Of a stretch of 64,000 nucleotides of DNA, positions 3,406 to 58,143 are shown piece by piece. The first letter of the stretch is position 1. Every line of letters starts with the position of its first letter. Below the pieces are notes generated by a model, which did no database searches, was not told where the DNA came from, and saw only the letters and a list, made by a program, of their open reading frames with translations. The translations under genes and the position numbers were made by a program. The DNA is taken from positions 1-64,000 of the forward strand of contig CANQWN010000005.1 of the NCBI GenBank assembly GCA_947627575.1, in the 5' to 3' direction. Source of the DNA: an uncultured Clostridia bacterium (GTDB lineage: Bacteria; Bacillota; Clostridia; Christensenellales; Borkfalkiaceae).

Positions 3406-3437
3406 ATTGAAAAATAATTATAAAAAGGAGGGGAATA

Positions 3438-3611: not shown

Positions 3612-3661
3612 TATGCCAAATTCATTTTTCACATGATTTAAGATTTAATGTTTTTATAACA

Positions 3662-3695
3662 AAAAAAGGGAGACAGACGCATCTGCCTCCCAAAG
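3662..3695 (-). terminator. Rho-independent terminator (minus-strand T-run)
   Basis: GGGAGGCAGATGCGTCTGTCTCCC then T7 on the minus strand, downstream of the Abi gene. Confidence 0.6.
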
Positions 3696-3845
3696 TGTAG
3701 TCTGATTTTTAAAATCTAAACGTCCACCTCAATTCAATAATATTATATGCTATTTTGATAAAAAAATCAAGCAACTTATTAAATTTATTTGAGATTTGTC
3801 AAGTTTTTTTAGCATTTTTTAGTAATTTTTATTTATTTAATGCCA

Positions 3846-4874: not shown

Positions 4875-4907
4875 TTGCTTACCTCTAAATAGATATTATC
4901 ACAGATT

Positions 4908-14259: not shown

Positions 14260-15924
14260 ATGAGCAATTTAGAAACTATTCGGAAAGATTTAATAGATGC
14301 CATCAATCAGCGGGTAGATGAAAAAATCCTTGAACGAAGCAATGCCGACTTATTGATCAAACTTATCAATCAAGCCGAATCGATTACGGAAGCAATTTCC
14401 ATTGCCGAATTGGGGACTACATATAAGCGCACGGGATTTCATTTTGATGTGCGTCTCGAGAAATTAGGCAATACAATTAAATATTTTAAGAAGAATGATC
14501 GACTCAGTTTCTCCGACGGGAGCAAGGATATTCCGAATAAATTGATAATCGGGGATAATTATGATGCTTTGCTCAATCTTTTAGTAGAATACAAGGGAAA
14601 AATTGATGTAATCTATATCGATCCGCCCTATGGTAAAGATAGCATGGGCGAATTTGCCGAAACAAATTATGATAATGCCTTAACGAGAGATAATTTATTA
14701 TCAATGCTGTACCCTCGGCTTGTACTAGCAAGGCAATTATTATCCGAAACGGGTGTCATTTTCTGTAGCATTGATGACCGCAATCAAGCATATATAAAAT
14801 GTCTGTTTGATGAAATTTTCGGAGAAAACGGCTTTCTTTTTTGCGCCGCTAGAATTACAAAAAAAGGTGGCAAATCCACACAAACCATTGCTAAAAATAA
14901 TGATTACCTATTAGCTTATACCCTGTCTAGCGAAATAATATTTAGTCAAGAAGAAAAAACAGTAGACAAATATAAATACGAGGACGAATTTGTTTCAACT
15001 CGTGGGAAATATGCACTTTCTCAAACTTTGGATTATAATTCTTTGCAATATAGCAAGACAATGGATTATGAGATTGAAATCGACGGGAGAAAATTCTATC
15101 CGGGCGGTAGCAAGAAAGCGCAGGAACAAAGATGGGCAGGAAACCATGGGAAAACCGATTGGGTGTGGCGATGGTCTAAGAGCGCGGTCGACTGGGGGAT
15201 AAAGGAAAAAATGTTTGTGGTAAAAAACGATAGAATTTATACAAAATCATATCTTTATTGCCGCAAAATGAACGGGAAAAACGAGCTGGAACGGATAGAT
15301 CCTACAAAGGCATATACTTCACTTTCTTTTATAGAAAATCCATATTCAAATGATAATGGGAAAAAAGAGTTGGATAATATATTTTACAATGGTAGCGTAC
15401 TATTTAAAAATCCCAAACCAAGTACACTTATTTCAACGTTAATCAAAATGGTATGTAGAAGAGAAGATGCTATTATCTTAGACTTTTTTGCCGGATCTGG
15501 CACAACGGGACAAGCGGTTGCGGAGTTGAACAATGATGACTTGGGTAAACGTAGATTCATCCTTTGTCAAGCGAACGAAATAACGGATACTACCCCCAAC
15601 GGCATAGCTTATGACGTAACTGTAAAACGGCTTAAACGTACAATGACAGGTAAGTGCTATGATGGAACTTCTGATTTTAAATGGCTTGATAAGCACACGC
15701 CTCTTGGCGGTAGCCTCGACGTATATGAAATCGGTGAAGTTGCCAACTTTGAAAGGAACGATGGTAAGACGGCATTTGACGTGATTGACGAAACGCTTTA
15801 CGGGAAAGCCAAATTCACCACGCTTCAAGAAAAAATCGAATGGGTTTGCGAGAATTTTGGCAATACACAAATGACACTTGAAAGCGATGCGGAATGGGCA
15901 AAGCGTTTGGAGGAGAATAAATAA
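14260..15924 (+). CDS. mod: Type III restriction-modification methyltransferase (Mod)
   Basis: VIYIDPPYGKDS preceding LDFFAGSGTTGQAV (beta-class motif order). Confidence 0.92.
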   Translation: MSNLETIRKDLIDAINQRVDEKILERSNADLLIKLINQAESITEAISIAELGTTYKRTGFHFDVRLEKLGNTIKYFKKNDRLSFSDGSKDIPNKLIIGDNYDALLNLLVEYKGKIDVIYIDPPYGKDSMGEFAETNYDNALTRDNLLSMLYPRLVLARQLLSETGVIFCSIDDRNQAYIKCLFDEIFGENGFLFCAARITKKGGKSTQTIAKNNDYLLAYTLSSEIIFSQEEKTVDKYKYEDEFVSTRGKYALSQTLDYNSLQYSKTMDYEIEIDGRKFYPGGSKKAQEQRWAGNHGKTDWVWRWSKSAVDWGIKEKMFVVKNDRIYTKSYLYCRKMNGKNELERIDPTKAYTSLSFIENPYSNDNGKKELDNIFYNGSVLFKNPKPSTLISTLIKMVCRREDAIILDFFAGSGTTGQAVAELNNDDLGKRRFILCQANEITDTTPNGIAYDVTVKRLKRTMTGKCYDGTSDFKWLDKHTPLGGSLDVYEIGEVANFERNDGKTAFDVIDETLYGKAKFTTLQEKIEWVCENFGNTQMTLESDAEWAKRLEENK

Positions 15925-18050
15925 TGCTTGCGGAAGCAATCGAACTACAAAATACAGCCGTGACCCAACTTTATGAAAAATTGAATGGTAAAGATGAAAT
16001 TACATTTAGAGCACCAACGGGAAGCGGGAAAACACATATGATGGCAGATTTGATGAATCGTGTTTTGGGAAAAAATAAAGACGTAGTTTTTCTCGTATCT
16101 TCTCTTTCCAAAAGCGATTTAGCCCGCCAAAATTTTAATAAGTTTTGTCAATATTCTGCAGAGGGTGAGTTCTCGCAATTAAAGCCATATCTTATTTCAA
16201 GTGAAATTGCAGGAGAGGAACGGCTATTCATCCCTATGGGCTTAAATGTTTATCTTCTTCCCCGTGATTTATATAAGCAAGGCGGAAGACTTATGCAAGG
16301 CGCCATGGAAAGCTTTCTGCAAAACATAACTTTCGCCGAAGCCTTTGGCGGTTGCGGTAAAAAAATCTATTTAATCAAGGATGAGTGCCACGTTGCCACA
16401 AATAACCTCGATAATCTTTCTAAAACATATTTTTCAAAAATCATCAATTTTTCCGCTACGCCGCAATTAAAGCGTGGACAAAATCCCGACGTGGAAATAT
16501 CCGATGACGAAGCGGTGCAGGCGAAGCTAATCAAGCATATCGAACTCGGCGACGATTCTGCCACAGTTGCCGATGCGATTGAAAAATATGAGAGTATCAA
16601 GGAAAGTTATCGCAACCTTTTAGGTGTAAATCCTTGTTTGATAATTCAAATTTCAAATAAGGATAAAGCCGACTTCGAATGGAACAATATTATTTTGCCC
16701 GAATTGAATAAAGCCGAACATCAGGATTTAAAATGGATGCTGATTGTTGACGACCCGAAAAAATGCGAGACAAACGACGTGTTTAAAGCGAAAAAAATCC
16801 CCGTTGCGAGATGGAAAGATTATGCAAAAGATAATGCAGCCGCAATAGATATTATTATTTTTAAGATGGTTATTTCAGAGGGATGGGATATTCCCCGTGC
16901 CTGTATGCTCTATCAAATAAGGGATACAAAAAGTAAACAGCTTGACGAACAGGTTATGGGTAGAGTAAGAAGAAATCCTCGTTTGCTTGATTTTGAGACT
17001 CTTTCAAAAGAAGCCCAACAGCTTGCTATGACCGCGTGGATATGGGGTATTATGCCCGAAAGTGGGAAGAAAGTTTTTCGGGTTAAACTCTGGGATGAGC
17101 CTACAGACATTACTAACGTTCTAAAATTAAGGACAACGCGGTTAAAACGATTAGATAAAAAAGATGATTTTTATATTGCAAAATATTTATCGAGCCAGCC
17201 GAAAGTTTCTTGTTATGGGAGTATTTTTGAACTGTATCGCAAGTTGAAAAAAGCGGACTTTGCAATCAAGGAAATGTGTTATTCCTATTCCAACAATATA
17301 AGCAAATGGTTTGAATTTACAGAACATTTGGAAGGAATTTCAGCTGAAAGCAACAAATTTATTTGTGATTACTCGCAAAGCATGGAAATAGTAAAAGACG
17401 AAATTGGTAAAGACCATGTTGTGTCTTTCCCCGTTGAATCTCAATATGTCGATAATGGGAATTACTTAAATATCTCCGATTGGGTATGGCGCAGAGTTGA
17501 TGGACAAAACAAATTTGCTTTTGACAGTGATGCTGAAAGAACTTGGGCAAATATTATTAAAGATTTAGTTTCGGACGATATTGACGGACAAAAAATTGGG
17601 AAAAGAATACAAGTGGGCAAAAGAAACCCCAAAGCAGGAAATATTACATTGTTTGGGGAAGAACCTGAAAAAGTAGAAACTGCAAATAAGTATTTGTGGG
17701 GTAAAAATTATCCGTATAATTCAACAATCAAGTATGAGTATTGTCTTGGTGCAGTACATTCCTCATATCCCGATTTTATTATGCAAGATCGTTTCAATCG
17801 CATCCATCTTTTTGAAGTTAAAAGCCTTAATCCTTCCAAAGCTATGCCCGCAGTATTCGACAGTTTGGAATATAAATTAAAACTTGAGGAGTTGAAAAGA
17901 TGTTATAAGCAAGCATCTTTACTTACGGGGTATATCTTCTATTTACCTATTTTCAGAGACGACGTGTGGCGCATTATGCGGCTTCAAAACGGAAATGAAG
18001 ATGCTCTGACAGAAGAACAGTTTAAAAACTTTATTAGGATAAGACCATAA
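15924..18050 (+). CDS. res: Type III restriction endonuclease subunit (Res)
   Basis: FRAPTGSGKTHMM Walker A; KDECHV; C-terminal YPDFIMQDRFNRIHLFEVKS PD-(D/E)xK-like; start overlaps mod stop. Confidence 0.9.
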   Translation: MLAEAIELQNTAVTQLYEKLNGKDEITFRAPTGSGKTHMMADLMNRVLGKNKDVVFLVSSLSKSDLARQNFNKFCQYSAEGEFSQLKPYLISSEIAGEERLFIPMGLNVYLLPRDLYKQGGRLMQGAMESFLQNITFAEAFGGCGKKIYLIKDECHVATNNLDNLSKTYFSKIINFSATPQLKRGQNPDVEISDDEAVQAKLIKHIELGDDSATVADAIEKYESIKESYRNLLGVNPCLIIQISNKDKADFEWNNIILPELNKAEHQDLKWMLIVDDPKKCETNDVFKAKKIPVARWKDYAKDNAAAIDIIIFKMVISEGWDIPRACMLYQIRDTKSKQLDEQVMGRVRRNPRLLDFETLSKEAQQLAMTAWIWGIMPESGKKVFRVKLWDEPTDITNVLKLRTTRLKRLDKKDDFYIAKYLSSQPKVSCYGSIFELYRKLKKADFAIKEMCYSYSNNISKWFEFTEHLEGISAESNKFICDYSQSMEIVKDEIGKDHVVSFPVESQYVDNGNYLNISDWVWRRVDGQNKFAFDSDAERTWANIIKDLVSDDIDGQKIGKRIQVGKRNPKAGNITLFGEEPEKVETANKYLWGKNYPYNSTIKYEYCLGAVHSSYPDFIMQDRFNRIHLFEVKSLNPSKAMPAVFDSLEYKLKLEELKRCYKQASLLTGYIFYLPIFRDDVWRIMRLQNGNEDALTEEQFKNFIRIRP

Positions 18051-34580: not shown

Positions 34581-34657
34581 GCGCCATTAGCTCAACTGGA
34601 TAGAGCGTTGGTCTACGGAACCAAAGGCTAGGGATTCGAATTCCTTATGGCGCACCA
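34581..34657 (+). tRNA. tRNA-Arg (ACG), CCA encoded
   Basis: GCGCCAT/ATGGCGC acceptor, anticodon loop CTACGGA, T-loop GATTCGAATTC, ACCA. Confidence 0.95.
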
Positions 34658-34658
34658 A

Positions 34659-34696
34659 GACCAACCTAATTCGAACCGAGTTGGGTTGGTCTTTTT
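34659..34696 (+). terminator. Terminator-like hairpin directly after tRNA-Arg
   Basis: GACCAACCTAATTCG...CGAGTTGGGTTGGTC then T5. Confidence 0.75.
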
Positions 34697-34796
34697 CTAT
34701 ATTTGAGAGGTGAGCGGGTAGGTTAGAAAGTTTAACCTATTGAAACTTAAATTCGTCTCGCCTATAAAGAATAAACAGAAAATATAAATTTAACTT

Positions 34797-35765
34797 TTAA
34801 AAAGGTATTTCACCGTCATCGTCAAAATTTGATATATTACTTTCTTCCCATACTATCATTGATTTTAATTCTTCTCTATTTCTTATATCTAATAAAATAC
34901 CATTTTCATCAAATAAATTTTCAGACAGTTTTAATATTTGCTTTTTTATAAGAGTGGTTTTCGTATAAACCCTTACCTTATCAGGTGCTTCTTGACTTAT
35001 TTCAAATCCCAATAACTCCATAAATTCATCAATTGTACCTATATCATTCAAATATAAGAATGATTTGGTTAATCCCAAATAATTTCTTATTATTTGCAAA
35101 GGAAATTTGTTCACTAATACAGAGCAGTTAAATTTTTCTCTGAACTGTTCCTGTTCCCGAATAAAATCCGAAAATACAGTTTTTATATTATCCGTAGTTT
35201 CTTGTAAATCATTTATGGTTGTCGAACTTGTAATCTTGGCTTCATTTTCTAACAAGCGTTGAAACATACCCGCAAATTGGAGCTTAATGTTTTCAATAAT
35301 ATCGCTTGTGTTTTCAAAAGGTATTATAGGATTTTTTATTTTCGCTTGTCTCAATTCTGCGATAAATTCGTGGATTTTTATATTGTCCGCAAACGCGGGC
35401 ATAAACTCCCCGTTATCTTTATTTTTTAAATAAGTCGTATTTTCCAAATAAACGTCTTTCATTATGAAAATAAAGATTTTCTTTCTGTCCCTCATTGCGG
35501 CATTAAGTTCATTCATCGTTATGGAATTATTATTATCAGCAGAAGAAGAACCGAAATGATTGCCTATTATGCAAATCAAAATATCACAATTTTGTATTTC
35601 GTTATAACAATCTTTTTCTAACGTTTCGTTCTGTGTATAAGTAACGCCCGCCCTCTCGTGCATAACAGGGTCGTATCCCAAACTCTTGATAAAATCAGCG
35701 ATAGCACTTCTTTCCTGTCTTAAATCATAGTATGTGGAACTAATAAATATCTTCGGTACTGCCAT
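34797..35765 (-). CDS. DUF4062 (TIR-like fold) protein
   Basis: MAVPKIFISSTYYDLRQERSAIADFIKSLGYDPVMHE...CDILICIIGNHFGSS. Confidence 0.8.
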   Translation of the reverse strand: MAVPKIFISSTYYDLRQERSAIADFIKSLGYDPVMHERAGVTYTQNETLEKDCYNEIQNCDILICIIGNHFGSSSADNNNSITMNELNAAMRDRKKIFIFIMKDVYLENTTYLKNKDNGEFMPAFADNIKIHEFIAELRQAKIKNPIIPFENTSDIIENIKLQFAGMFQRLLENEAKITSSTTINDLQETTDNIKTVFSDFIREQEQFREKFNCSVLVNKFPLQIIRNYLGLTKSFLYLNDIGTIDEFMELLGFEISQEAPDKVRVYTKTTLIKKQILKLSENLFDENGILLDIRNREELKSMIVWEESNISNFDDDGEIPF

Positions 35766-35780
35766 ATTTTTTCTCCTTAT

Positions 35781-37007
35781 TTATGCAATATATTCCAATT
35801 CGATTTTTATTTTTATGCCGTTGTAATCGCCCTGCTCAATTTCAAGGAAAGTTTCTTCATTAAATCCGATATATAAAACCCGCAAGAAGTCAGAGAAAGA
35901 GTAAATCTTTTCTACTGAATTTTCAAGGTTGTCTTTTATGCTATCTGTTTTTACAATTAAACAGTCGTGCTGATAATCTCTATCGACAATTTGCGTATTG
36001 CCGTTAGGGTGTGCGTGATTAAAATGCTGATTTGGCGTTAATGCAATTAAATTTTCCAAATAAAATGAAATCTCCGGGAATTCACTTGCAGAAAAGATAT
36101 GGTGAATATGTGTAGCTTTTTCTGTGTCCCCGCCCATTTCACTTAATCCGCCACGGTAAATATCGTTATACTTTCTTAATCTGCGTTTTGCCTTTTGAGA
36201 TTGATAAGAGAAGTAGGCTTCGTTTATTACGATATGTTGGGATGCAAGGAAATCTTTTCGGGCAATATCTTTCGGCTTGTCGGCATAAATATCTCTGAAA
36301 TTATCCCTGTTATACATAAGCATATCATAAGTGATTGCATATTTTGAGATGTGTCCGCGTTCAGTGCCGCGTTTTCTTAAAGCAAAAGCCAAAACATTTA
36401 TAATTTTTGTAAAGATACGTCCACATTCGGTTTTTCCGCTACTGCCGCGGCTACCAATTTCCGTATAAGTAACAGTATAATTGTAAAAAGTATCTTTCAA
36501 CTTGTTATAGCCGTCTTTATTCTGCGCTCGGAAGAACTCATCAAACGAACTTGTCAAATCTGAGTCGGCAATTACTTTCTTTATGTATAAGGTCAGAAAT
36601 TGCAGAGCATTTCGTTCCCTTACAGCAATAAATTCCAAAATTTCACGGTTAATCAGTTTATATACATTGTTACGCCCTGCCTTATCTTCATTAAGTAAAC
36701 CCGCATAGGCAAATAATTTAATCGGTTGCCCGAAAAATTTATCATATTCATTAGAAGCGGAAGAGCTGTCAACTTCAACTTTACTGAATATGTCGTGAAC
36801 GTTTTGAATAGCATAATCGGAAAACCAAATATCCTTGGATGTAAATTCGACGTCGTCGCCGCACTCATCTAAATAATTGATAATACAGTCGGCAACTATA
36901 CAAATAACATCAGGCGTACATTTTTGGTCTATCCAACGAGCATTGTTATGTATTCGGATGTCGTAATTTTTGTTATTTAAAAATTCGATTATTTCGTTAT
37001 CTGTCAT
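35781..37007 (-). CDS. HNH endonuclease (probable restriction enzyme)
   Basis: ATHIHHIFSASEFPEISFYLENLIALTPNQHFNHAHPNG. Confidence 0.75.
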   Translation of the reverse strand: MTDNEIIEFLNNKNYDIRIHNNARWIDQKCTPDVICIVADCIINYLDECGDDVEFTSKDIWFSDYAIQNVHDIFSKVEVDSSSASNEYDKFFGQPIKLFAYAGLLNEDKAGRNNVYKLINREILEFIAVRERNALQFLTLYIKKVIADSDLTSSFDEFFRAQNKDGYNKLKDTFYNYTVTYTEIGSRGSSGKTECGRIFTKIINVLAFALRKRGTERGHISKYAITYDMLMYNRDNFRDIYADKPKDIARKDFLASQHIVINEAYFSYQSQKAKRRLRKYNDIYRGGLSEMGGDTEKATHIHHIFSASEFPEISFYLENLIALTPNQHFNHAHPNGNTQIVDRDYQHDCLIVKTDSIKDNLENSVEKIYSFSDFLRVLYIGFNEETFLEIEQGDYNGIKIKIELEYIA

Positions 37008-38331
37008 ACGTTTTTCTCCTTAATCCAAAAAAGAACACTGAATTATTATCAATATTTAATGAGCGTGTTCCATAATTTCTTGCTATACGATAATATAAAG
37101 TAAATTCATAAGTTGAAAATAACGCTAAATCTTTTTCAGTTATTATATAGCTATTATCTTTTAAAGTAAGTAAAGCAACCGAGCCGTTTGCTATTGTATT
37201 CGGAGGTAAAAAACAAGCTCTCGGAGCGTAAGACAAATTAGGGACAAGCACAACATTTTTATTGTTCAGATATTTTGCCACCAATAAATTGTCAATGTCG
37301 TTTATATAACTATCGTAACCGACTATATTTTTTATATGATTTGAGCCGATATTCCTTGATTTCAGTACCCGATATTTACCGCTTTCAAAAAGCATAGGAT
37401 TGACTATTTGTCTATCTCTGAACGCTTCAAACACGCCTAATTGTAAGGTGTCCGCAAACTCATCGAAAAATTTATTCCTGTATAAAAGCCAAGTGGGATA
37501 TTTGTTATCCGTAAAATAAGATTGTTCTTGAACTATATCAATTTTTTGAGATACTGAAACTATGTGCGTATTTGTCGGCGGTGTTGTAGAAGTGTATAGA
37601 AGATTTACGGTTTCTATCTTTACACCCTTAAACCCGTTTTCCCCAAAATCAAGGATAGAAGAAATATGCGTTGAATTTATTATCTGCCGAATTTCCTCAT
37701 ATTCGGGAGCATTTAAAACGCTTTTGGGAACTATTAAAGAAACCCATTCACCGTCTTTAATTGCTTTTTCCAAAAACCATACAAACAGGTTAGAACTTTT
37801 CGTAATTTTACTGTTTTTGCGGTATTTTTTGTTTAAAGCATAGTCTTTGACTTTTGCATAAGGTGGATTCCCTATAACGAGGTCAAATTTTTTGCCCGAT
37901 ACAGGGAATTGCAGGTAATCATCTTTCAGATAAATTATATGGACGTTCGGATATTTTTCCCGATAATACGTTTCGAATATCAATTCCGCAATTTGTAATT
38001 CTGCTTCATCTATATCCACCAGATACATTTCAAGTATTTTTTTATTTTTATACCGTTCGGCTATAAACGGGATAAAATTTCCCGCGCCTGCGGAAGGTTC
38101 CAAAATACTGATATGCTCCGAATTTTCAAAATTCGGAAGTTCGGACATTATATACTTACAAATGGCGGTATCGGTATAGTAAGCAGCGGTAGTATCGCGG
38201 TTTGGGTTTAAATATTCAGCCGCTTGATATACAAACTCGACAGGTAAATTTTTACCGTGCTTTTTTATATTTTCAGACAAATCACTCAAAGATTTTAAAT
38301 TGTATTTGTCCAGAAAGTCATAAAATGTCAT
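36997..38331 (-). CDS. N6-adenine DNA methyltransferase (Eco57I/TaqI-like)
   Basis: ILEPSAGAGNFIPF motif I; VIGNPPYAKVKDY motif IV. Confidence 0.9.
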   Translation of the reverse strand: MTFYDFLDKYNLKSLSDLSENIKKHGKNLPVEFVYQAAEYLNPNRDTTAAYYTDTAICKYIMSELPNFENSEHISILEPSAGAGNFIPFIAERYKNKKILEMYLVDIDEAELQIAELIFETYYREKYPNVHIIYLKDDYLQFPVSGKKFDLVIGNPPYAKVKDYALNKKYRKNSKITKSSNLFVWFLEKAIKDGEWVSLIVPKSVLNAPEYEEIRQIINSTHISSILDFGENGFKGVKIETVNLLYTSTTPPTNTHIVSVSQKIDIVQEQSYFTDNKYPTWLLYRNKFFDEFADTLQLGVFEAFRDRQIVNPMLFESGKYRVLKSRNIGSNHIKNIVGYDSYINDIDNLLVAKYLNNKNVVLVPNLSYAPRACFLPPNTIANGSVALLTLKDNSYIITEKDLALFSTYEFTLYYRIARNYGTRSLNIDNNSVFFFGLRRKTYDR

Positions 38332-39488
38332 TTCAATTCTTCTTTTCTTATGTTTTCCGCAATTTGCCTAAATATTTCTGTGGGAACAGCCTCGCCAATT
38401 GATTGACGGATATTTATATCATTTTGAGATATGTACTTTTTCTTTTCCGATAACGGCAAAGCATTTAATTCTTCCAGAGAGTGATTAGTCCACTTGAACG
38501 AAGCGGGTATTGACATCATACGCATAAGCTCTCGGATACTGAAAACCCTATCATCAACAGGGTGAACTGTATTTTGGCTTGCCAAAATATCATTTCTTGT
38601 ATGTACGCAAGGCGGGACTTTATCCCAATATTGCCGAGTATATTTATCTGCATTACCGTTTTTCGTGTAAACTTTTTCACCGTTTCTGTAAAAATGCGGC
38701 AATCTGCTTTCATCAGTATTATCGAAAGCACCTTGTCCTTCTTTTAAATTTTCTATCCAACGCCGCATTTCTGGATTGTAACTTCTGAAACTGTGAAATA
38801 TATCTGTGGGGCAAATTTCACCCATTTCTTTTAAACTCGGTAAATCTCCGATAATTTGGCGCAAAGTAGGCTCGTCTCTATATGCGGGATAAAGGGTTTG
38901 AGGTAAAGTATCTATATCTTTTCTTACACCAATAACCAAGGTTCTTGTACGGCTCGAATTTGCACCGTAATTTTTAAAATTCAATACTTGAAAATCAATA
39001 TTATAATTTTCGGATAAATTATCGTTTATTGCCGCTTTAATCTTTTTATTTGTGCCATCAATATCGGTGCAAATAGTATTTAAAAAAGACTTTACATTTT
39101 CCAAGACAAAATATCTGGGCAAAATTTTTTTAATTAAAGATAGCGAAGCAACAACTAACGAGTTCCGTTTGCTTTCATCTTTCTTTTTATGATTTGCAAC
39201 AGACATACCTTGACAAGGCGGCGTGGCAACTACTACGGTCAAGTCTTGTAAGTGTTCTTTGGCTTGCCAAAGTTCAAGTTGTTCCATTATGCTTTTTTGT
39301 GTTTTTTCCAGAAGAATATCGCCCAAAATATAGCCGCTATCATATTTGCATTTATGATTAGCCTTTTGGACTTCTAATCTTTTAGGCAATAATTCGTTTG
39401 TTGCAACACATTCGAAATTTTCCATTTTAAAGCCGTAACAACCAACACCGGCACTACTGAATAAAGATATGTAAGTCAATGTTTTCAT
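38328..39488 (-). CDS. C5-cytosine DNA methyltransferase
   Basis: SLFSSAGVGCYGF motif I; VATPPCQGMSVANHKK motif IV; ENVKSFL motif VI. Confidence 0.93.
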   Translation of the reverse strand: MKTLTYISLFSSAGVGCYGFKMENFECVATNELLPKRLEVQKANHKCKYDSGYILGDILLEKTQKSIMEQLELWQAKEHLQDLTVVVATPPCQGMSVANHKKKDESKRNSLVVASLSLIKKILPRYFVLENVKSFLNTICTDIDGTNKKIKAAINDNLSENYNIDFQVLNFKNYGANSSRTRTLVIGVRKDIDTLPQTLYPAYRDEPTLRQIIGDLPSLKEMGEICPTDIFHSFRSYNPEMRRWIENLKEGQGAFDNTDESRLPHFYRNGEKVYTKNGNADKYTRQYWDKVPPCVHTRNDILASQNTVHPVDDRVFSIRELMRMMSIPASFKWTNHSLEELNALPLSEKKKYISQNDINIRQSIGEAVPTEIFRQIAENIRKEELK

Positions 39489-39700
39489 ACGTTACTCTCC
39501 GCAGGAATTATATCCATAACATCAGCTATATTACATTCAAGAGCCGCACAAATTTTAATTATTACATCCATACTGACAGGCTGATTTTTGCCAAGTTTAG
39601 CTAATGTAGCCGTACCGATATCGGCTTTTAAGCGGAGATCGGTTTTTGTCATTTTTTTATCAATCAATAATTTCCAAAGTTTATTATAATTAACAGCCAT
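39485..39700 (-). CDS. XRE-family HTH regulator
   Basis: LWKLLIDKKMTKTDLRLKADIGTATLAKLGKNQPVSMDVIIKICAALECNIADVMDI. Confidence 0.9.
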   Translation of the reverse strand: MAVNYNKLWKLLIDKKMTKTDLRLKADIGTATLAKLGKNQPVSMDVIIKICAALECNIADVMDIIPAESNV

Positions 39701-39828
39701 AAAAGAGGAACTCCGATTTCAATTAAAAACATTTTATCATATTCACAAAATTTAAGCAAGAATTTTATTCAACTTATGAAATAAAATATTTTAGTTTATG
39801 AAGTTATCTAATTTTAAAATGGCATTTA

Positions 39829-39884
39829 GGCGTGAGCTTGTCTTGACAAGCGCGCGGCTAACGCCGCGCGGACAAGCTCACGCC
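39829..39884. repeat. Nested hairpin 1 with TAAC tip
   Basis: GGCGTGAGCTTGTC / GACAAGCTCACGCC (14 bp perfect) enclosing CGCGCGGC-TAAC-GCCGCGCG (8 bp perfect). Confidence 0.85.
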
Positions 39885-39908
39885 CAAAAGAAATCGGTTA
39901 AAAAAAAT

Positions 39909-39992
39909 AATTTGAACGCCGTGCGGGAAGGGCGTTCGCCGCTAACCCGCTTGGCGAATCGCCCTTCCTCATGCGCGGCGGCTCGTTCAAAT
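39909..39992. repeat. Large imperfect hairpin 2
   Basis: ATTTGAACG/CGTTCAAAT outer arms; GGAAGGGCG/CGCCCTTCC middle; TTCGCC-gctaacccgctt-GGCGAA tip. Confidence 0.8.
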
Positions 39993-40408
39993 ATTTAATT
40001 TTTTATCCCGTTTATAACCTTTTCTTTCGTTGACGGTGGCGGCTTTTCCGTTTTCGTCAGTACCTGCAAAAATTCCCCTTATACTGTCATAATTTTTAAC
40101 TTTCCGTGTTATAAAATGTTCCTACATTATGTAGCACGAAAAAAATTTTAAAAAATATGTAAACAGTTGTTTAATATTATCCATTCTGCGTTATATAATA
40201 CTTGCACGCACCAAAAAAGTGCGGGTACAATTTAATATAAGAACTGCGTCAATAGGAAAATCTATTGTGCAGCTAAAACAGCATAACAGTGTATAGAATT
40301 AGTGCGAAGTAGCGCAAAGCGAAAAGCCGGCTCACCCCCAACCTAAAGAAAAGGTGCAAAGTTGCGTTTTAATAAGAGATAGGGCGTTATTACGCTCTCT
40401 TATTCAAC

Positions 40409-40472
40409 GGGCGATGTACAAAGTTTTATGAGATTAAGTTCTCGTAAGATTTTGTACACCGCCCTTTTTTCG
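40409..40472 (+). terminator. Long leader hairpin with T-run upstream of rep (possible attenuator)
   Basis: GGGCGaTGTACAAAgTtTTAtGAG-attaagtt-CTCgTAAgATTTTGTACAcCGCCC then T6. Confidence 0.65.
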
Positions 40473-40503
40473 TGCAAATTTTTCAGATTTGGAGGGAAAA
40501 AAT

Positions 40504-40647
40504 TTGCAGGAAAACAAGACAAAACGCATTGAGGTCAGAGCTATCGGGAAGCCGAATATCGGGGCTTTATCCGAGAGCGAACGAAAGGTATTCTATACCG
40601 CTCTTTTAAAGCGGATTACAAAGCTTGCCGCGAAAGGGGGTAAATGA
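40504..40647 (+). CDS. 47-aa small protein preceding rep
   Basis: TTG start after GGAGG; LQENKTKRIEVRAIGKPNIGALSESERKVFYTALLKRITKLAAKGGK; stop overlaps rep start. Confidence 0.5.
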   Translation: MQENKTKRIEVRAIGKPNIGALSESERKVFYTALLKRITKLAAKGGK

Positions 40648-41534
40648 ATATGAATTTAATCGGAGCAAAGGTTTACTATGACGGCTCGCACTGGATAGCC
40701 ATACCGCATACGGAACGCCCGTATAAGCGGAAACGCAGGAAACGGAAAACAGACAAAGACGAAACGGTTGAACAGTTTGAAAGGGCGTTCAATAATACAC
40801 CAAAAGATAAAAAGACGAAGAAAAAAGAAAGATTGGTAAAAGAGTTTACGCCGCTATTCAAAGACCAACCCGAGGCGGTTGAATTTGTAGAAAAGCAATT
40901 TGAAAGACTAAACCGCAACCGCATAGAACGCTATAAGCGTATGAAACGCAAAGCCTATCTGCAACAGTGGAGTTATTTTTGTACTTTCACTTACGATAGC
41001 GCAAAACACACCGAAGAAACTTTCAGAAAAAGGCTTATGAATTGCCTATACCATTTAGCAAGCCGAAATGGCTGGAAATATATCGGGGCTTGGGAGCGCG
41101 GAGATAAAACTGAACGCTTACACTTCCACGCGCTTATATACATACCGCCCAACGGCATGGTTGGCAAGTTTGAGGAACACAACGACTTTAATTTCAAAAC
41201 GCACAACAGACAGATTACCAACCAAAACACGTTTTTTAACGAGAAGTTCGGACGGAGTGATTTCAACGCAATATCGCACCAATCCGAGGTTGAGGACAGC
41301 GTGTACTATATGCTCAAATATATAACCAAAAACGACGAGCGCATAGTTTATTCAAGAGGTCTTAAAAGCTACATTATAGCGGACATTCTGGACGAGGATA
41401 TTGTTTGGCCATACGGCAACGAAGAACACGAATATAAATTTGTGTTGGCAGACAATTTCACCTGTATAACCTACGGCGAGATTTTGGGAAAGGTCAGCCC
41501 CGAAATTATAGCGCAAATGCCCAAATGCAACTAA
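40644..41534 (+). CDS. Rolling-circle replication initiator-like HUH endonuclease
   Basis: ERLHFHALIYIP (HUH-type HxH), downstream YYMLKYITK Tyr motif, basic N-terminus. Confidence 0.7.
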   Translation: MNMNLIGAKVYYDGSHWIAIPHTERPYKRKRRKRKTDKDETVEQFERAFNNTPKDKKTKKKERLVKEFTPLFKDQPEAVEFVEKQFERLNRNRIERYKRMKRKAYLQQWSYFCTFTYDSAKHTEETFRKRLMNCLYHLASRNGWKYIGAWERGDKTERLHFHALIYIPPNGMVGKFEEHNDFNFKTHNRQITNQNTFFNEKFGRSDFNAISHQSEVEDSVYYMLKYITKNDERIVYSRGLKSYIIADILDEDIVWPYGNEEHEYKFVLADNFTCITYGEILGKVSPEIIAQMPKCN

Positions 41535-41562
41535 TCTTTTTGTCTTTCGTCCGGCGGAGCGT

Positions 41563-41667
41563 AAACGGAAACGCACGCCGTTGCAAGGGTAAATGCACGG
41601 CTAACGCCGCCCTTGCATCGGCGCAGAACGCACGAAATGTAAAAAGCGGAATAATGCGTTTCCGTTT
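41563..41667. repeat. Nested hairpin 3 with TAAC tip
   Basis: AAACGGAAACGCA / TGCGTTTCCGTTT (13 bp perfect), CGCCGTTGCAAGGG / CCCTTGCATCGGCG (13/14), CGGC-TAAC-GCCG tip. Confidence 0.85.
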
Positions 41668-41724
41668 GTCCGCACCTTGCCGAAAGGCAAAATAAAAAAT
41701 CTATTTCAAAAGGAGTAAAAAACA

Positions 41725-43248
41725 ATGAAAACAGCAGTGATATATGCCCGTTATTCGAGCGACAGCCAAAGCGAGCAGAGTATCGAGGGACAACTTCGCG
41801 TTTGCGAGGAATACGCACAACGCAATAATATCCTCATACTCAACACTTACATAGACAGAGCAATGACGGGAACTAACGACAACCGCCCGGATTTCCAGCG
41901 TATGATTAAAGACAGTAGCCGTAAAGAATGGAATTACGTTTTAGTCTACAAGTTAGACCGTTTCAGTCGTAACAAGTATGAAACGGCTATCCATAAGAAA
42001 ACTTTGCGCGACAACGGAGTTAAGCTACTCTCCGCAATGGAAAATATCCCCGACACTCCCGAAGGAATTATCCTTGAAAGTTTGCTCGAAGGTATGAACC
42101 AATACTATTCGGCAGAACTTGCGCAGAAAGTAAGCCGAGGTATGCGGGAAACGCGCAGAAAAGGTTTATATCAAGGCGGCGGGGTATTGTACGGCTATAA
42201 AATCGAGGGCAGAAAAATTGTCATAGACGAAAACGCCGCAGAGGTCGTAAGATATTTATATACCGAATACGCCAAAGGCGAATATGTGCGAAACATAATT
42301 GCAACCTTGACGGAGCGCGGGATTTACTATAAAGGCAAGCCGTTTGTAAGAAACAGCGTTTACAACATTCTGCGCAACGAAAAGTATTCGGGAGTATATA
42401 AGCACGGCGAAGAAGTAGTTGACAATATGTATCCTCGGATTATAGACGGCGAACTCTTTGAGCAGGTGCGCAAAAAGGTAAACGCCAACAAATACGGTAA
42501 ATCAAGCGTTAAAGCAGATTTTTTATTGAGAGGAAAGTTATACTGCGGATATTGCGGTCAGCCTATGCACGGCGAAAGCGGCACTACGCGAAATGGTACT
42601 CGTATTTATTACTATAAATGCAACGGACGGAAAAAGCGCATAAACGACTGCAAAAAGGAAATGGTGCGCAAGGAAGTCATAGAGGATATAGTTATCAACG
42701 CCACCGTGGAAAAGCTGTGCAGTCCCGAAAATATAGACCGCATAGTAAAAGAGCTTTTACAAATACAGGCGCAACGTATAAAGGAAAATTCCATTTTAAG
42801 CGTTCTTATAAAACAGCAGCGGCAGACCGAAACGGCGTTGAACAATCTTGTAAGCGCGGTAGAGCGCGGGATAATATCCAACTCCACCAACAAACGGCTG
42901 CACGAGCTTGAACGGCAACAGGAGCAGTTGGAACGGCAAATACTGATAGAGCGAAGTAAACAAGCCGTACAACTGAAAGAGAGCGACATACGGGAGTTTT
43001 ACGGACAGGCTTTGAAGTCAGAGCCGAAGATGCTTATATCGAGCTTTATAAGAAAAATAAAACTGTTCGACGATAAAATAGAAGTCTATTTTAATAGTCC
43101 GATAAGAACAAGTCCCGACGGGGAAACGTCAGATGACGACAACCCGTCGGGCTTTTTATTTTACTCCGAAACCATTGATATGGTAACGTTCAAATGGGCA
43201 AGAACGCAAGCATATACCATTAAGGCATTACTTGAACTATTTATATAG
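41725..43248 (+). CDS. Large serine recombinase (resolvase + recombinase + zinc ribbon domains)
   Basis: AVIYARYSSDSQSEQSIEGQLRVCEEYA; KLDRFSRNKYE; LRGKLYCGYCGQPMHGESGT zinc ribbon. Confidence 0.95.
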   Translation: MKTAVIYARYSSDSQSEQSIEGQLRVCEEYAQRNNILILNTYIDRAMTGTNDNRPDFQRMIKDSSRKEWNYVLVYKLDRFSRNKYETAIHKKTLRDNGVKLLSAMENIPDTPEGIILESLLEGMNQYYSAELAQKVSRGMRETRRKGLYQGGGVLYGYKIEGRKIVIDENAAEVVRYLYTEYAKGEYVRNIIATLTERGIYYKGKPFVRNSVYNILRNEKYSGVYKHGEEVVDNMYPRIIDGELFEQVRKKVNANKYGKSSVKADFLLRGKLYCGYCGQPMHGESGTTRNGTRIYYYKCNGRKKRINDCKKEMVRKEVIEDIVINATVEKLCSPENIDRIVKELLQIQAQRIKENSILSVLIKQQRQTETALNNLVSAVERGIISNSTNKRLHELERQQEQLERQILIERSKQAVQLKESDIREFYGQALKSEPKMLISSFIRKIKLFDDKIEVYFNSPIRTSPDGETSDDDNPSGFLFYSETIDMVTFKWARTQAYTIKALLELFI

Positions 43249-43486
43249 GCGGCTACTTATTCCACGTTCCGCTTGATTTGAGCCTCTATGGGGTGCGTTG
43301 GCAAGGCAAAGAGCCAAGCCACAACCGCCCCAAGGGGCTTTTGTTTTGCCGTTGGCAATAAACAGCCTAACACACCCCTTTCTCATATCAAGCGGCTTTC
43401 GCGGCATAAACCGCCGCCTTATAAAAGAAAATAACCTAACCCGATACTTCAAAAGTATTCGAATTAGGTTAAAAGTGGTGCACCAA

Positions 43487-43523
43487 CAATCCTCCAACCC
43501 CCGAAACGGGGGTTGGAGGATTG
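43487..43523. terminator. 17-bp perfect hairpin next to right att candidate
   Basis: CAATCCTCCAACCCCCG-aaa-CGGGGGTTGGAGGATTG. Confidence 0.65.
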
Positions 43524-43697
43524 TTTATATGCCGTAAGGGTAGGAAGAAGGCGTATGATTCGCGCGAGCCGCTTTGCGGCGACGCTTTGGATAGTGCAAC
43601 TATCCAAAATTCCTCTGTAAGTAAACCGAAACGGGGGTTGGAGGATTGTTTATATGCCGTAAGGGTAGGAAGAAGGCGTATGATTCGCGCGAGCCGC
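43501..43697. repeat. 72-bp exact direct repeat (43501-43572 and 43626-43697)
   Basis: CCGAAACGGGGGTTGGAGGATTGTTTATATGCCGTAAGGGTAGGAAGAAGGCGTATGATTCGCGCGAGCCGC in both copies. Confidence 0.95.
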
Positions 43698-43780
43698 ATT
43701 ATTTTATTGCTACATTGACAATTTTTTACAAATATGCTAAACTGTTTACAACGCATTAAATTTTACGGAAGATTATGTAA

Positions 43781-46735
43781 ATGTTTAATTTGCTTCTTGA
43801 CGAAAACTTATTTTCCGAGGTTTGGATAAATGTAATTGCGGGGATTATTTCGTCTGCATTGCTTGCTATTCTGCCTTTTGTGATAGGTTTGGTAAAAACA
43901 AAAAGTAAAAATAAATTTTACAAAGCGCTTTTTAATGTTACAAGTCCAAGCGAAACAGAAAAAATTTATATCAAACATTACGTAAAACACGCTTTTGAAA
44001 AGGTATATTTTCCTATTCTCGGAGGGGAGAAAAACGTAAATTACAAATCGCTGGTTAAAGAGATCAAAAGCGAGAAACTGAAAACGACAATCATATTAGG
44101 CAGCTCCGGCATAGGTAAATCTACGCTTATGTGCAAGCTGGCTTATTTGTTCCGTTCAAAGCCCAATGAAAATGACGGCAAGCGGCAATCGGCGATAAAC
44201 TACGGCATTTTATTTTATAAGTTGGGGCGAGGCTCTTCCATAGACGCGGTTTTAGCCGATATCGGACGTAAATTATCGTCCGACAGAACATATATTTTGT
44301 TCCTCGACGGGTTGGACGAAGTCCCCGATTTGCAAAATGAAAGCGGCGAGGCCGTTTTAAACAAGCTGTTAATAAAACTTTTTAGTTCCGAATATTCCTC
44401 CGGCTTGAACAAAATTTTTATTTCGTTGCGACCCGAAATTTTAAGCAAAGGCTATTCATACGCCTTTAATATCCAACCTCAATATATATCCGATAGCACG
44501 GCGATTTATAAGATTTGCAATTTTAACGAAAAACAAATTTTAACAATGTATCGGCGTGAAAGATATTCCTATAAAAACGGCGTCCGTATGAAAGCCGATT
44601 TGTTTATCCGCAGGCAAAACTATAAAAAGTTAAGGCAGGTAGTTAAAGAAAACCCTCAAAGCATCTTCACTTATCCTTTGATTTTAACGTGGGCGAACGA
44701 AATACTTTGCGATTACAATATAGAAAAATTAAAGTATATATCGTGGTATGACGCTTTGGGGAAAGTTATAGAAAAGGAATCTGACCGCGAATATGACATT
44801 GAATTAAGCAAAAAGGGTAAAATTATCGGCGTTTCCGCTGATGAGAGGGATAAATATAAGGGAGATTTTAAAAAGTTTTTGTTAAATATAGCGTTGCGTA
44901 TGGCGCAGACGAACAGTCAACGCGTAGCCCAAAGCGTTGTAAGCGAAGTGGTGTCGCAATTAAATTTGAACGGTGAACCAACCGTATTTTTAGCCCGCCG
45001 TCTGCTTCGTTATATAGAACGATCCGAAACGGAAAACGGTGAAAAGAGTGAACCGTATTACGAATTTATACATAATACCGTTTATTGGAGGGCTTTGGCG
45101 GAGGCTATGCTCAACCCACATATTCCGCAAACCGTGCGGGCGGCAATAATAACCGGATTTAACAAAGATACGCCCGTCTTGCAATATTGCCGTCAAGGGC
45201 TTTATAGCGTATACGGTGAAAAAATTTTCCCGTATGGGAATCAAGATAAATATTTCGCCGCAGTTGAAAATAAGGTTATCGAATGTAACGTGTTGCAAAA
45301 CGTCATCCCTTGCGAAATAGTTTTATCCTGTTTTTACGGTATAGACCAAGTTGTTTTCAACATATCTTCGGATAGCGCCGTCAAGTTCGGCTTTGCCCAA
45401 ATCAAAGAATTTGTAGAAAACAGAAAAGTTGATTTTTCCAACAGCCCGATTTCCGATTTAACTATATTGCAAAGTTTTTCGGATAGTTCTTTCAACGCGC
45501 TTGATTGTTCCAATTCCGATGTGGTAACCGTGAAAATCCCCGATTATGTAACGGAAATAAAATTTCTTAAATGTGCCTCGCTTAAAAATGTTGAGATAGG
45601 AAGCGGCGTGCAATCGATTGGCGAATTTGCGTTTGGCGGTTGTACTTCGCTTGAAAATATCACCATTCCCGACAGCGTAAAAGATATAGGCAAGGGTGCT
45701 TTTCTTAAATGCACCTCGCTTAAAAGCGTAAAGATAGGAAGCGGTTTGCAATCGTTAGGTGAACACGTTTTCGATCAGTGCATCTCGCTTGAAGGCATCA
45801 CCATACCGTCTAACGTAAAAGATATAGGCGAATGTGCTTTTCTGCACTGTACCTCGCTTAAAAATGTGGAGATAGGCAACGGCGTGATATCGATAGGCGA
45901 ACAGGCGTTCGGAGGTTGCATCTCGCTTGAAGGCATCACCATACCCGATAACGTAAAAGAGTTAGGCAAGGGTGCGTTTGCCGGTTGTGCCTCGCTTAAA
46001 AATGTTGAGATAGGAAGCGGCGTGCAATCGATTGGCGAATTTGCGTTTGGCGGTTGTACTTCGCTTGAAAATATCACCATTCCCGACAGCGTAAAAGATA
46101 TAGGCAAGGGTGCTTTTATTAAATGCGCCTCGCTTAAAAATGTAAAGATAGGCAACGGTGTGGAATTGATAGACGGTGGTGCGTTCTCTTATTGCACTGC
46201 GCTTGAAAGCGTAAGCATACCGGATAATGTAAAAGGAATAGGTGAGGTTGCGTTCTATGGTTGCACCTCGCTTAAAAGCGTAAAGATAGGAAGCGGTTTG
46301 CAATCGATTGGCGAATCGGCGTTCTATGATTGTACTTCGCTTAAAAACGTGAAGATAGGAAGCGGCGTGCAATCCATTGGCGCACAGGCGTTTCAATTTT
46401 GTGCCTCGCTTGAAAGCGTCACCATACCCGATAACGTAAAAGATATAGGGAAACTTACGTTCTATTATTGCACCTCGCTGAAAAACTTAAAGATAGGCAA
46501 CGATGTGGAATTGATAGGCGAACGGGTGTTTGATTATTGCACTTCGCTTGAAAGTATCACTATACCCGAAAGCGTAAAAAAGATAGGCAAGGGCGCGTTT
46601 GCAAATTCAGGAATAGCCGCAATAACTTTCGGCGGCACGGTTTCGGATTGGGAAAAGGTTGAAAAAGCCGAAACTTTTTACCTTTCGGAAGTTAAAGAAG
46701 TTGTTTGCAAAGACGGAAGCGTGGAAGTAAAGTAA
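43781..46735 (+). CDS. Membrane-anchored NACHT/STAND NTPase with C-terminal BspA-type LRRs
   Basis: N-terminal TM VIAGIISSALLAILPFVIGLV; GSSGIGKST Walker A; YILFLDGLDEVPD NACHT Walker B; ~15 LRR_5 units. Confidence 0.85.
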   Translation: MFNLLLDENLFSEVWINVIAGIISSALLAILPFVIGLVKTKSKNKFYKALFNVTSPSETEKIYIKHYVKHAFEKVYFPILGGEKNVNYKSLVKEIKSEKLKTTIILGSSGIGKSTLMCKLAYLFRSKPNENDGKRQSAINYGILFYKLGRGSSIDAVLADIGRKLSSDRTYILFLDGLDEVPDLQNESGEAVLNKLLIKLFSSEYSSGLNKIFISLRPEILSKGYSYAFNIQPQYISDSTAIYKICNFNEKQILTMYRRERYSYKNGVRMKADLFIRRQNYKKLRQVVKENPQSIFTYPLILTWANEILCDYNIEKLKYISWYDALGKVIEKESDREYDIELSKKGKIIGVSADERDKYKGDFKKFLLNIALRMAQTNSQRVAQSVVSEVVSQLNLNGEPTVFLARRLLRYIERSETENGEKSEPYYEFIHNTVYWRALAEAMLNPHIPQTVRAAIITGFNKDTPVLQYCRQGLYSVYGEKIFPYGNQDKYFAAVENKVIECNVLQNVIPCEIVLSCFYGIDQVVFNISSDSAVKFGFAQIKEFVENRKVDFSNSPISDLTILQSFSDSSFNALDCSNSDVVTVKIPDYVTEIKFLKCASLKNVEIGSGVQSIGEFAFGGCTSLENITIPDSVKDIGKGAFLKCTSLKSVKIGSGLQSLGEHVFDQCISLEGITIPSNVKDIGECAFLHCTSLKNVEIGNGVISIGEQAFGGCISLEGITIPDNVKELGKGAFAGCASLKNVEIGSGVQSIGEFAFGGCTSLENITIPDSVKDIGKGAFIKCASLKNVKIGNGVELIDGGAFSYCTALESVSIPDNVKGIGEVAFYGCTSLKSVKIGSGLQSIGESAFYDCTSLKNVKIGSGVQSIGAQAFQFCASLESVTIPDNVKDIGKLTFYYCTSLKNLKIGNDVELIGERVFDYCTSLESITIPESVKKIGKGAFANSGIAAITFGGTVSDWEKVEKAETFYLSEVKEVVCKDGSVEVK

Positions 46736-56038: not shown

Positions 56039-56884
56039 CTATTTCCACAGTTTTACGGGGTCGAAGCCGAACACCTGCACAACTTCCATATAAGGGCTGT
56101 TCGCAAGGTCGCGCGGGGTTACCACGGGTCCGCCGTTGCAGTCAAGGTCTATTCCGAATTGTTTGTACGCATACCACACAAGGTGCGCGCATTGCGTGCG
56201 CTTGCAGTTGTTTTTGTCGGTAAGCACGCCGCAAGTTACGTCGTATATCTTGCCCGTCAGGTTGTCCGCGGCAAATTGCGCAACTTCGCGCTTTACTTCC
56301 GCGTCCGCCTTCGGCGAAAGTATCATAAAGGTTATTCTGTCCGAAAAGTCCTTTATGCCGCCTATCGCGCTTTTTTCGCCCACCGCGCTGGCTTGCAAAA
56401 CTTCCTCGCCCGCGCCGTCCGTCACAAGCCCCGCGTGCCCCATCCGCCAACCGGAAAGGTGGGTGGAATCGGTTACTATTATATCGCCGTCCTCAAGGTA
56501 CGCCGTGGGGATATAGCTTTCTATATAGTCGCTGCAAATAAAGGGCGCGTAAAAATCGTGGTATACCTCGTGTTCGGCAAGGTACGCCGTTTGCAGTGAA
56601 AGTATCCTGCTTTTGCCCGCCGCGCCGCGCGCTAACATTCTGTCCACGCCCGCTTTCGCAAGCCCCGTCTGCGCGTACAGCAGGGCGTAATCTTCGTCCG
56701 TAAGGCTGTTTTTTGCAAGTATTGCCGTCAAATCGGCTTTCGGGCAGTCGGGCAAATACGGCTTGTCCTTGTCCGCCTTTACAAAAAAGCCCTGCATAAC
56801 GCCTACAAAAACCGCCAGCGCGGCAAGCACGCAGGCAATGGCGATAAGCGCGGTTTTAAGTTTTTTGCCTACTTTTTTCTTCAT
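56039..56884 (-). CDS. YiiX/NlpC-P60-like amidase/peptidase
   Basis: LEDGDIIVTDSTHLSGWRMGHAGLVTD; RTQCAHLVWYAYKQFGIDLD; N-terminal TM anchor. Confidence 0.7.
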   Translation of the reverse strand: MKKKVGKKLKTALIAIACVLAALAVFVGVMQGFFVKADKDKPYLPDCPKADLTAILAKNSLTDEDYALLYAQTGLAKAGVDRMLARGAAGKSRILSLQTAYLAEHEVYHDFYAPFICSDYIESYIPTAYLEDGDIIVTDSTHLSGWRMGHAGLVTDGAGEEVLQASAVGEKSAIGGIKDFSDRITFMILSPKADAEVKREVAQFAADNLTGKIYDVTCGVLTDKNNCKRTQCAHLVWYAYKQFGIDLDCNGGPVVTPRDLANSPYMEVVQVFGFDPVKLWK

Positions 56885-58143
56885 TCTTCGTTTTCCGTCA
56901 GCCGCTTCAAAGCCAACCTGTAAATTTCAAAACAACGTTCTATCTTGTCGAAAGTTATATATTCGTCGGGCTTGTGTATGGTATCTTCCTCGCCGTCCTC
57001 TTCGGGGCCGAAAGCCGCGCCGCATTTAAGGGCGCGCGCATACGTCCCGCCGCCTATGGCTATGGGCTTTACGTCCTTGCCCGTAACTTCGTTGTAAACT
57101 TCGCACAGCGTGCGTATAAGGCGGCAATTTTTGTCGTTGTAAAGGGGCGCCTGATAGTGCGCCACGCGGCAGGGCACGCCCTTTGCGGCTATGCGTTCAA
57201 GCACGGCTTGCTTTGTGTATGTTGCGGGGAAGCGTATGTCGCATACGACGTACACGCCGTCGCCGTCCTGCCTTATAACGTCGGGCGAAAAGGTAAGCGC
57301 GCCCGTCTCGTCGCGCATATCGCCCAGCCCAAAGCCGTCCTCAAACAGCAACCTATGCATTTCGTCCAGCCCCAAATAGCAGAGTATGGGCGAAATGGCG
57401 TTTACGCCGTTCTGCGGTTGCGAACCGTGCGCCGATTTGCCCCGCGCGTAAATTTTCCCTTCGCGGCTTTCAACGCCGTATTTTTTCAGCTTTTCGTCGT
57501 CCGCGGGCGCGCACACCTCGCAGTAATCGCACACCATATTGGCGCGTTCGCCGCCTGCAAGCCCGCAAAAACCGCCGCGGGCGGGGAATTTAAGTTCTAC
57601 CTGCAAAATCCCCTTTTCGGCATATATCACGGGGAAATTTGCGTCCGGCGAAAAGCCCGTTTCGGGCATAACCGCGTGGGCATTGTAGTAATCCACGCAC
57701 TGCCAGCCGTTTTCCTCGTTGCAACCCACAATAAGTTTTATGCGCTTTGCGGGCTTGAACCCCTCGTCTTTAAGCGCCTTCATCGCATACAGCGCGATAA
57801 CGGCGGGACCCTTGTCGTCCATCGTCCCGCGGCCCCATATCCGCCGCGCGGCATAGTCTACTTCGCCGCCGAAGGGCGCGTGCGTCCAGCCGCTTCCCGC
57901 GGGCACAACGTCAAGGTGGGCAAGCACGGCAAAATCTTTGCCGTCGCCCCAGCTTACTTCGCCCGCGTAATTATCGTAATTTTTCACTGCAAAGCCCGCG
58001 TCTTGCGCGATTTTAAGGAAGTGCGCAAGGCACTCCGCCGCGCCTTTGCCGAAGGGCGCGCCGTCCTCCGCGGGGCGTTGGCTGCTGTCAAATTTTACCG
58101 AACGGGAGATTGCGGAGATTATTTCTTCGATTATTTTACGCAT
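56881..58143 (-). CDS. M20 family dipeptidase (PepV/Sapep-like)
   Basis: VLAHLDVVPAGSGW; GRGTMDDKGPAVIALYAMKAL; GCNEENGWQC; IGGGTYARAL. Confidence 0.9.
   Translation of the reverse strand: MRKIIEEIISAISRSVKFDSSQRPAEDGAPFGKGAAECLAHFLKIAQDAGFAVKNYDNYAGEVSWGDGKDFAVLAHLDVVPAGSGWTHAPFGGEVDYAARRIWGRGTMDDKGPAVIALYAMKALKDEGFKPAKRIKLIVGCNEENGWQCVDYYNAHAVMPETGFSPDANFPVIYAEKGILQVELKFPARGGFCGLAGGERANMVCDYCEVCAPADDEKLKKYGVESREGKIYARGKSAHGSQPQNGVNAISPILCYLGLDEMHRLLFEDGFGLGDMRDETGALTFSPDVIRQDGDGVYVVCDIRFPATYTKQAVLERIAAKGVPCRVAHYQAPLYNDKNCRLIRTLCEVYNEVTGKDVKPIAIGGGTYARALKCGAAFGPEEDGEEDTIHKPDEYITFDKIERCFEIYRLALKRLTENEE

Follow-up and report, generated by a model that had tools for sequence, protein, structure and literature searches.

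How does a small mobile element come to lie at the 3′ end of a tRNA gene with its recombinase at the far end, and how does the tRNA remain functional? This question is raised by a 64,000-nt stretch of an uncultured Clostridia bacterium of the Borkfalkiaceae (GCA_947627575.1, contig CANQWN010000005.1, positions 1–64,000, forward strand), hereafter the window, in which an element of 8,828 bp (34653–43480) lies between the 3′ end of a tRNA-Arg(acg) gene and a distal copy of that end, carrying a HUH Rep and a large serine recombinase (LSR). The reading defended here, to which we assign a probability of about 0.78, is that the LSR of this HUH-Rep plus LSR family of uncultured Clostridia would perform T-loop-directed, orientation-blind integration, with the tRNA 3′ end serving as attB. 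It is built on sequence comparison: the search for the LSR covered 93 genomes from the genus, 396 from the order and three of that order's families (874 genomes over all searches), and the neighbourhoods of about 90 LSRs were inspected. The named relatives are metagenome-assembled uncultured Clostridia, L-numbers denoting LSR loci and G-numbers genomes. The R end is the LSR end of an element and the L end the opposite one, positions within half-sites are counted from the predicted crossover, and the usual orientation sets the R (LSR) end against the tRNA, the reversed one the L end. The features that define the insertion are:

34581–34657, plus strand: tRNA-Arg(acg), the target gene, with the T-loop half-site TTCGAA at 34635–34640 (ARAGORN, Rfam RF00005)
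34648–34657, plus strand: tRNA-side core TGGCG^CACCA, with the crossover placed at 34652/34653 by comparison of R, L and tRNA half-sites
34653–34698, plus strand: L half-site, with the element-supplied CACCA end, a TTCGAA half-site and a predicted intrinsic terminator (dG −23.4, T-run)
41725–43248, plus strand: LSR, the putative integrase, 507 aa (PF00239, PF07508, PF13408; phrog_95 integrase)
43440–43480, minus strand: R half-site with the element's own predicted terminator (dG −17.6, reading leftwards from the core), with TTCGAA at 43458–43463
43476–43485: distal core TGGTG^CACCA, palindromic, with the predicted crossover at 43480/43481
43485–43525, plus strand: displaced native tRNA-Arg terminator, a perfect 19-bp hairpin

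The sequence-only reading had reported repeats bracketing the segment, each a few bases past ATTCGAATT, and both were found: TGGCGCACCAA at 34648 and TGGTGCACCAA at 43476 are 11-mers differing by one mismatch, with ATTCGAATT upstream of each. The distal copy is its own reverse complement (TGGTGCACCA), a palindromy that had gone unremarked there, and the element also lies the opposite way round from most of its family. The direct repeat (10/11 bp) is by itself weak proof, because further one-mismatch copies occur within the same 30 kb (at 33205, 33355 and 47344), and it was dropped as sole proof of an element; the element is judged real because its R end, motif spacing and core recur across dozens of elements. 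The terminator hairpin noticed directly after the tRNA (34658–34692, then a T-run) proved to belong to the element, and the interpretation of the distal hairpin as the displaced native terminator fits; in relatives, host tRNAs without the element carry a hairpin at the equivalent position. Moreover, joining the 5′ part of the tRNA to the distal CACCA rebuilds the window tRNA exactly, and the L and R half-sites match each other as inverted repeats over 28 nt (79%). The predicted junction of the excised circle is AAAAGTGGTG-CACCAAGACC, and the predicted empty site is TGGCGCACCA-ACAATCC. A crossover within CCA was disfavoured by the T/C difference in the window, the acceptor pairing of the tRNA and the 5-bp half-site shift, leaving a G^C centre as the favoured position.

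The spacing of this shift connects the element ends to the tRNA. Counted from the predicted crossover, the R half-site consensus of 57 elements is approximately CNCCA-N5-AACCTAA(A/T)TCGAAC, and the L half-sites, found via the same spacing and often beside a hairpin on the host side, present the same motif at the same distance. Element halves carry AA(A/T)TCGAAC at 16–24, whereas the tRNA half carries GATTCGAAC at 11–19, TTCGAA being 13–18 bp from the crossover in the T-loop versus 18–23 bp in the element half-sites. In A118-type integrases, the zinc-domain motif is moved 5 bp (16–24 to 11–19) between attP and attB (PMC3783163), and the same 5-bp shift of serine integrases is found here between element and tRNA halves. 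R and L halves are joined directly, as attP junctions, in L246, L249, L250 and probably L182, and these junctions look like parts of tandem arrays.

Most members of the close clade have the 3′ side of the LSR turned towards the 3′ end of a tRNA gene. These genes encode Arg (acg, ccg, cct), Lys, Glu, Gln, Tyr, Ala, Thr, Met, Leu, Val and Ser tRNAs, and by eye the target of L178 (G359) is apparently a transfer-messenger RNA (tmRNA). The tRNA-Leu beside L104 was not accepted as its partner, there being no half-site after that tRNA. A second LSR of the window's own genome (L047, G000 contig C6, 70493–71947 in genome coordinates, 66% identical) has its end adjoining a truncated tRNA-Gln-like 3′ fragment, and comparable partial tRNAs occur at L093 and L171; the portion from the T-arm to the CCA may alone be sufficient as attB. 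The ends of more distant LSRs (~40% identity; L119, L123, L124, L127, L128) were found near tRNA genes (Glu, Lys, Ser), and tRNA targeting may therefore extend beyond the analysed clade.

The window's backward insertion fits its palindromic crossover dinucleotide. Reversed orientation was found in 9/20 elements with the palindromic GC dinucleotide (window, L041, L091, L104, L110, L156, L160, L174, L237) versus 1/46 with other dinucleotides (L163, with GT), the usual orientation accounting for 11 GC elements and 45 others (Fisher p = 3.7e-5, counting related elements as independent); by this comparison, uncorrected for relatedness, orientation follows the central dinucleotide. The strongest pair is L057 and L091, whose LSR genes are identical over 1,500 nt and which are oppositely oriented at their Lys and Arg tRNAs, and G420 holds two minimal elements, one per orientation. 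On the tree, seven orientation changes are needed. Engineered symmetric dinucleotides are known to render the A118 and Bxb1 integrases orientation-blind (PMC3556126, PMC3642061).

An end that faces a tRNA must provide the discriminator, the CCA and a terminator. R halves were observed to have all three (dG −11 to −27). L halves beginning with CACCA and followed by a terminator were found in 8/8 located GC-class elements (window, L057, L090, L091, L156, L157, L158, L237), and the CCA was absent from 11/11 non-GC L halves (L055 twice, L095, L107, L179, L186, L188 and four attP junctions). A strong terminator was likewise absent from all seven mapped non-GC L ends, L107 having a decayed hairpin (−10.3). 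The distal copy of L157 retains CGCCA while its tRNA now ends in CACCA, and therefore the discriminator was apparently exchanged. Predictions fixed before a second sample was drawn held in it, although this sample contributed just one further reversed element and a single additional L half of the GC class.

These observations suggest the following course of events. The excised circle would have a symmetric attP composed of two half-sites, with TTCGAA 18–23 bp from the centre, and the zinc-ribbon domain of the integrase, through contacts that we infer, would read the TTCGAA of the tRNA T-loop as an attB half-site lying 5 bp closer to the centre. Strand exchange would take place five bases from the tRNA 3′ end, the element replacing the last five (base 5, discriminator and CCA) and bringing a new terminator. 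A palindromic central dinucleotide (GC, found at tRNA-Arg and tRNA-Lys) would leave polarity free, and either end could be set against the tRNA, as presumably happened in the window; this would be why GC-class elements are equipped with a CCA and a terminator at each of their ends. The symmetric attP, the point of exchange, the free polarity and the doubly equipped ends are drawn from sequence comparison; excision, the recombination reaction and the replication of the circle are inferred steps. In more general terms, the near-universal T-loop is likely to serve as an attB half-site for a naturally occurring class of serine integrases, giving them access to most tRNA genes, and a palindromic-dinucleotide subclass is likely to be orientation-blind and to have evolved two tRNA-repairing, terminating ends.

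Several observations weigh against this interpretation. TTCGAA is conserved in all tRNA genes anyway, and T-loop recognition is for this reason proposed from the match together with its spacing. The boundaries of the element rest on comparison because an empty-site genome for the window locus was not found; its native right flank (43481–43780) was unique among the 93 genus genomes, and a clean occupied/empty pair was not found among the flanks of other elements either. No circular form was seen, as plasmids gave 0 matches, phage records one match of 41% and circular viral contigs 0. The R end or the target could not be assigned for several LSR loci (e.g., L053, L097, L169, L172, L187, L189 and L194). 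The orientation counts are not independent, and a tree-paired sign test had 2–3 informative pairs, with a median p of 0.5. Finally, L163 is reversed though its GT is non-palindromic, and its tRNA lies off the contig. L164 and L165, its closest kin, share the GT and lie R end first at tRNA-Arg(cct), whose dinucleotide is AC when the gene is read in its own direction; because of this, the opposite orientation of L163 at a GT tRNA would fit the polarity rule.

Three other histories were considered for the same data. Integration might always proceed LSR end first, the reversed copies arising by later inversion, either through attL × attR recombination with a directionality factor or through homologous recombination between the terminator half-sites. 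The inverted-repeat relationship of the L and R half-sites noted above suits the latter route, and a palindromic core would also permit attL × attR inversion, but homologous recombination within the half-sites would leave bases 6–10 at the tRNA, whereas in both L156 (reversed) and L157 (usual) the L end is accompanied by its whole half, including ATCAC; moreover, attL × attR recombination by serine integrases requires a directionality factor, and none was identified here. This history is therefore unlikely, although inversion at the core by the recombinase would be compatible with the sequences. It is a good deal less probable that two units are involved, a Rep-LSR element (39.8–43.48 kb) having inserted beside an R-M (restriction-modification) cluster native to the tRNA-Arg locus. 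Similarity to relatives does begin sharply near 39820, but the half-site with core and terminator is placed at the tRNA, and no counterpart was observed at 39.8 kb, for which reason separate R-M and Rep-LSR elements were dropped; in addition, relatives with both ends mapped hold their cargo inside, between the L half and Rep, and L179 is a further element that contains this R-M trio.

The tRNA 3′ end is also the classic target of tyrosine integrases (PMC4383910), from which it could be supposed that a tyrosine-integrase island or another recombinase placed the element and that the LSR is a passenger. This is hardly credible, because no tyrosine recombinase was recognised among the Pfam-scanned element proteins, minimal relatives consist essentially of Rep and LSR, and orientation obeys the dinucleotide rule of serine integrases. 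The LSR itself has the Resolvase catalytic, Recombinase and zinc-ribbon domains in 507 aa (expected ~450–650 aa). Integration by the LSR at the tRNA 3′ end, in either orientation, is thus the reading retained, and the remainder of the backbone that accompanies this enzyme comprises:

39825–39888: inverted repeat opening the conserved Rep-LSR backbone; similarity to relatives starts here and the cargo beyond differs
40644–41534, plus strand: HUH Rep, 296 aa, with HFH (H160, H162) and YxxK (Y222, K225) motifs (PF23343, E 3e-11)
43247–43418, plus strand: conserved covarying hairpin (TTATTCCAC ... CGCGGCATAA), candidate replication origin

The HUH Rep motifs are intact, H160-F161-H162, Y222 and K225 being invariant in 12 aligned sequences. 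In the 172-nt hairpin that follows the LSR, 96.3% of cells are paired and 16/30 pairs show compensatory change, a covariation whose observed value was reached by 0/500 shuffles. Very few G-U cells were found, suggesting a DNA-level structure, and Rfam gave no match to the hairpin, only the tRNA being above threshold in that search. The hairpin tends to be missing where Rep is missing, with exceptions both ways, and because of this tendency to co-occur it is considered a candidate origin; replication of the circle presumably depends on this hairpin together with Rep.

Between the L end and Rep lies a slot of variable contents, which in the window is occupied by the following genes:

34797–35765, minus strand: DUF4062/TIR-like protein, 322 aa (PF13271, E 5.8e-23)
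35781–37007, minus strand: type II restriction enzyme, 408 aa (PADLOC REase_II, E 3e-131), with a 55% relative in L179
36997–38331, minus strand: N6-adenine DNA methyltransferase, 444 aa (PF07669, PF02384; MTase_II)
38328–39488, minus strand: C5-cytosine DNA methyltransferase, 386 aa (PF00145; MTase_II)
39485–39700, minus strand: Cro/C1-type helix-turn-helix regulator, 71 aa (PF13443)

The sequence-only reading had recognised R-M cargo, a HUH Rep and a serine recombinase, all three of which were borne out by domain matches, and it had described a minimal island carried by its R-M system. The compact integrative element at tRNA-Arg with Rep and LSR stands, but the R-M system, type II by its REase_II and two MTase_II, is exchangeable cargo and not the driver, because minimal relatives hold Rep and LSR and others hold different defence genes. 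Minimal elements of 3.65–4.3 kb (L156, L157, L158, L090) have little beyond Rep and LSR, a single small additional open reading frame (ORF) being present in some, and other cargo includes an MmeI-type IIG enzyme with AbiH (L091), AbiU (L055), and PDC-S06 with an m5C methyltransferase (L095). The R-M trio of the window recurs in L179, of another family, with the same methyltransferases alongside the related restriction enzyme. As had also been claimed, no transfer (conjugation) genes were recognised on the window element, and no relaxase family was matched among its proteins in the Pfam scan.

The surroundings of the element have notable features of their own. In G009 (L044) and G008 (L050), tRNA-Arg(acg) follows M20-peptidase and YiiX-like genes, which in the window lie at 56039–58143 on the minus strand, ~21 kb from tRNA-Arg, suggesting an inversion or other rearrangement (window 34.4–56.1 kb); a 13-nt inverted match lies near both of its breakpoints. 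Half of the native terminator hairpin falls within a 75-nt segment that is present twice (99%; 43501–43575 and 43626–43700), and similar repeated terminator units follow the distal cores of L041, L160 and L174. Directly downstream of the element, 43781–46735 encodes a 984-aa protein with a NACHT-like domain and BspA-type leucine-rich repeats. Two more clusters (1149–7547 and 14260–18050), judged from ORFs alone, resemble methyltransferase/helicase R-M systems.

Much of this machinery has counterparts in known systems. The phage integrases A118/LI and Bxb1 share the domain architecture of the LSR, short att sites made of symmetric half-sites, a zinc-domain motif 5 bp closer to the centre in attB than in attP, and a central dinucleotide that alone sets orientation (PMC3783163, PMC3556126, PMC3642061); this architecture, the dinucleotide rule and the engineered symmetric-dinucleotide effect are already known from the same works. 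These integrases differ in targeting protein genes and in having asymmetric native dinucleotides, whereas the present elements use the tRNA 3′ end and can have a dinucleotide that is palindromic by nature. Serine integration at tmRNA has also been proposed before, for the Dehalococcoides ssrA islands and their CcrB-like integrase DsiB, which pair modular cargo with a serine recombinase located at the 3′ portion of an RNA gene (PMC3146451). Those islands differ from the present elements, having an insertion assigned to the T-loop, a repeat of 20 bp, a module of six genes that includes DsiA as a second, small serine recombinase, and one target gene, whereas here the crossover is placed five bases from the CCA end and one LSR, many tRNA genes and two orientations are found, so that the elements fall outside the DsiB type. 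The serine-recombinase integrative and mobilizable elements reviewed in PMC5704250 are similarly small, found in Firmicutes, and have one LSR and very short direct repeats, but they lie within dispensable genes and have relaxases and conjugative helpers, whereas here the tRNA ends stay functional, the HUH protein is Rep-type (PF23343) and no transfer gene was recognised. The Islander tRNA-targeted islands also restore the tRNA gene end and displace a fragment or the native terminator, but they are catalysed by tyrosine integrases (PMC4383910).

Serine integrases were described earlier as not known to target tRNA genes, a 2022 survey of LSRs made no mention of tRNA (PMC10083194), and the open-access texts searched contained no account of serine integration that is directed by the T-loop or naturally blind to orientation. 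If the proposed mechanism is true, the target range of serine integrases would be widened, natural attachment sites could be palindromic, otherwise an engineered situation (PMC3556126, PMC3642061), and dozens of insertions would provide a natural test of the central-dinucleotide rule. An integrase targeting the T-loop/CCA region of tRNAs would be a candidate multi-site integration tool. These elements would also show how an essential tRNA stays functional whichever way mobile DNA lands.

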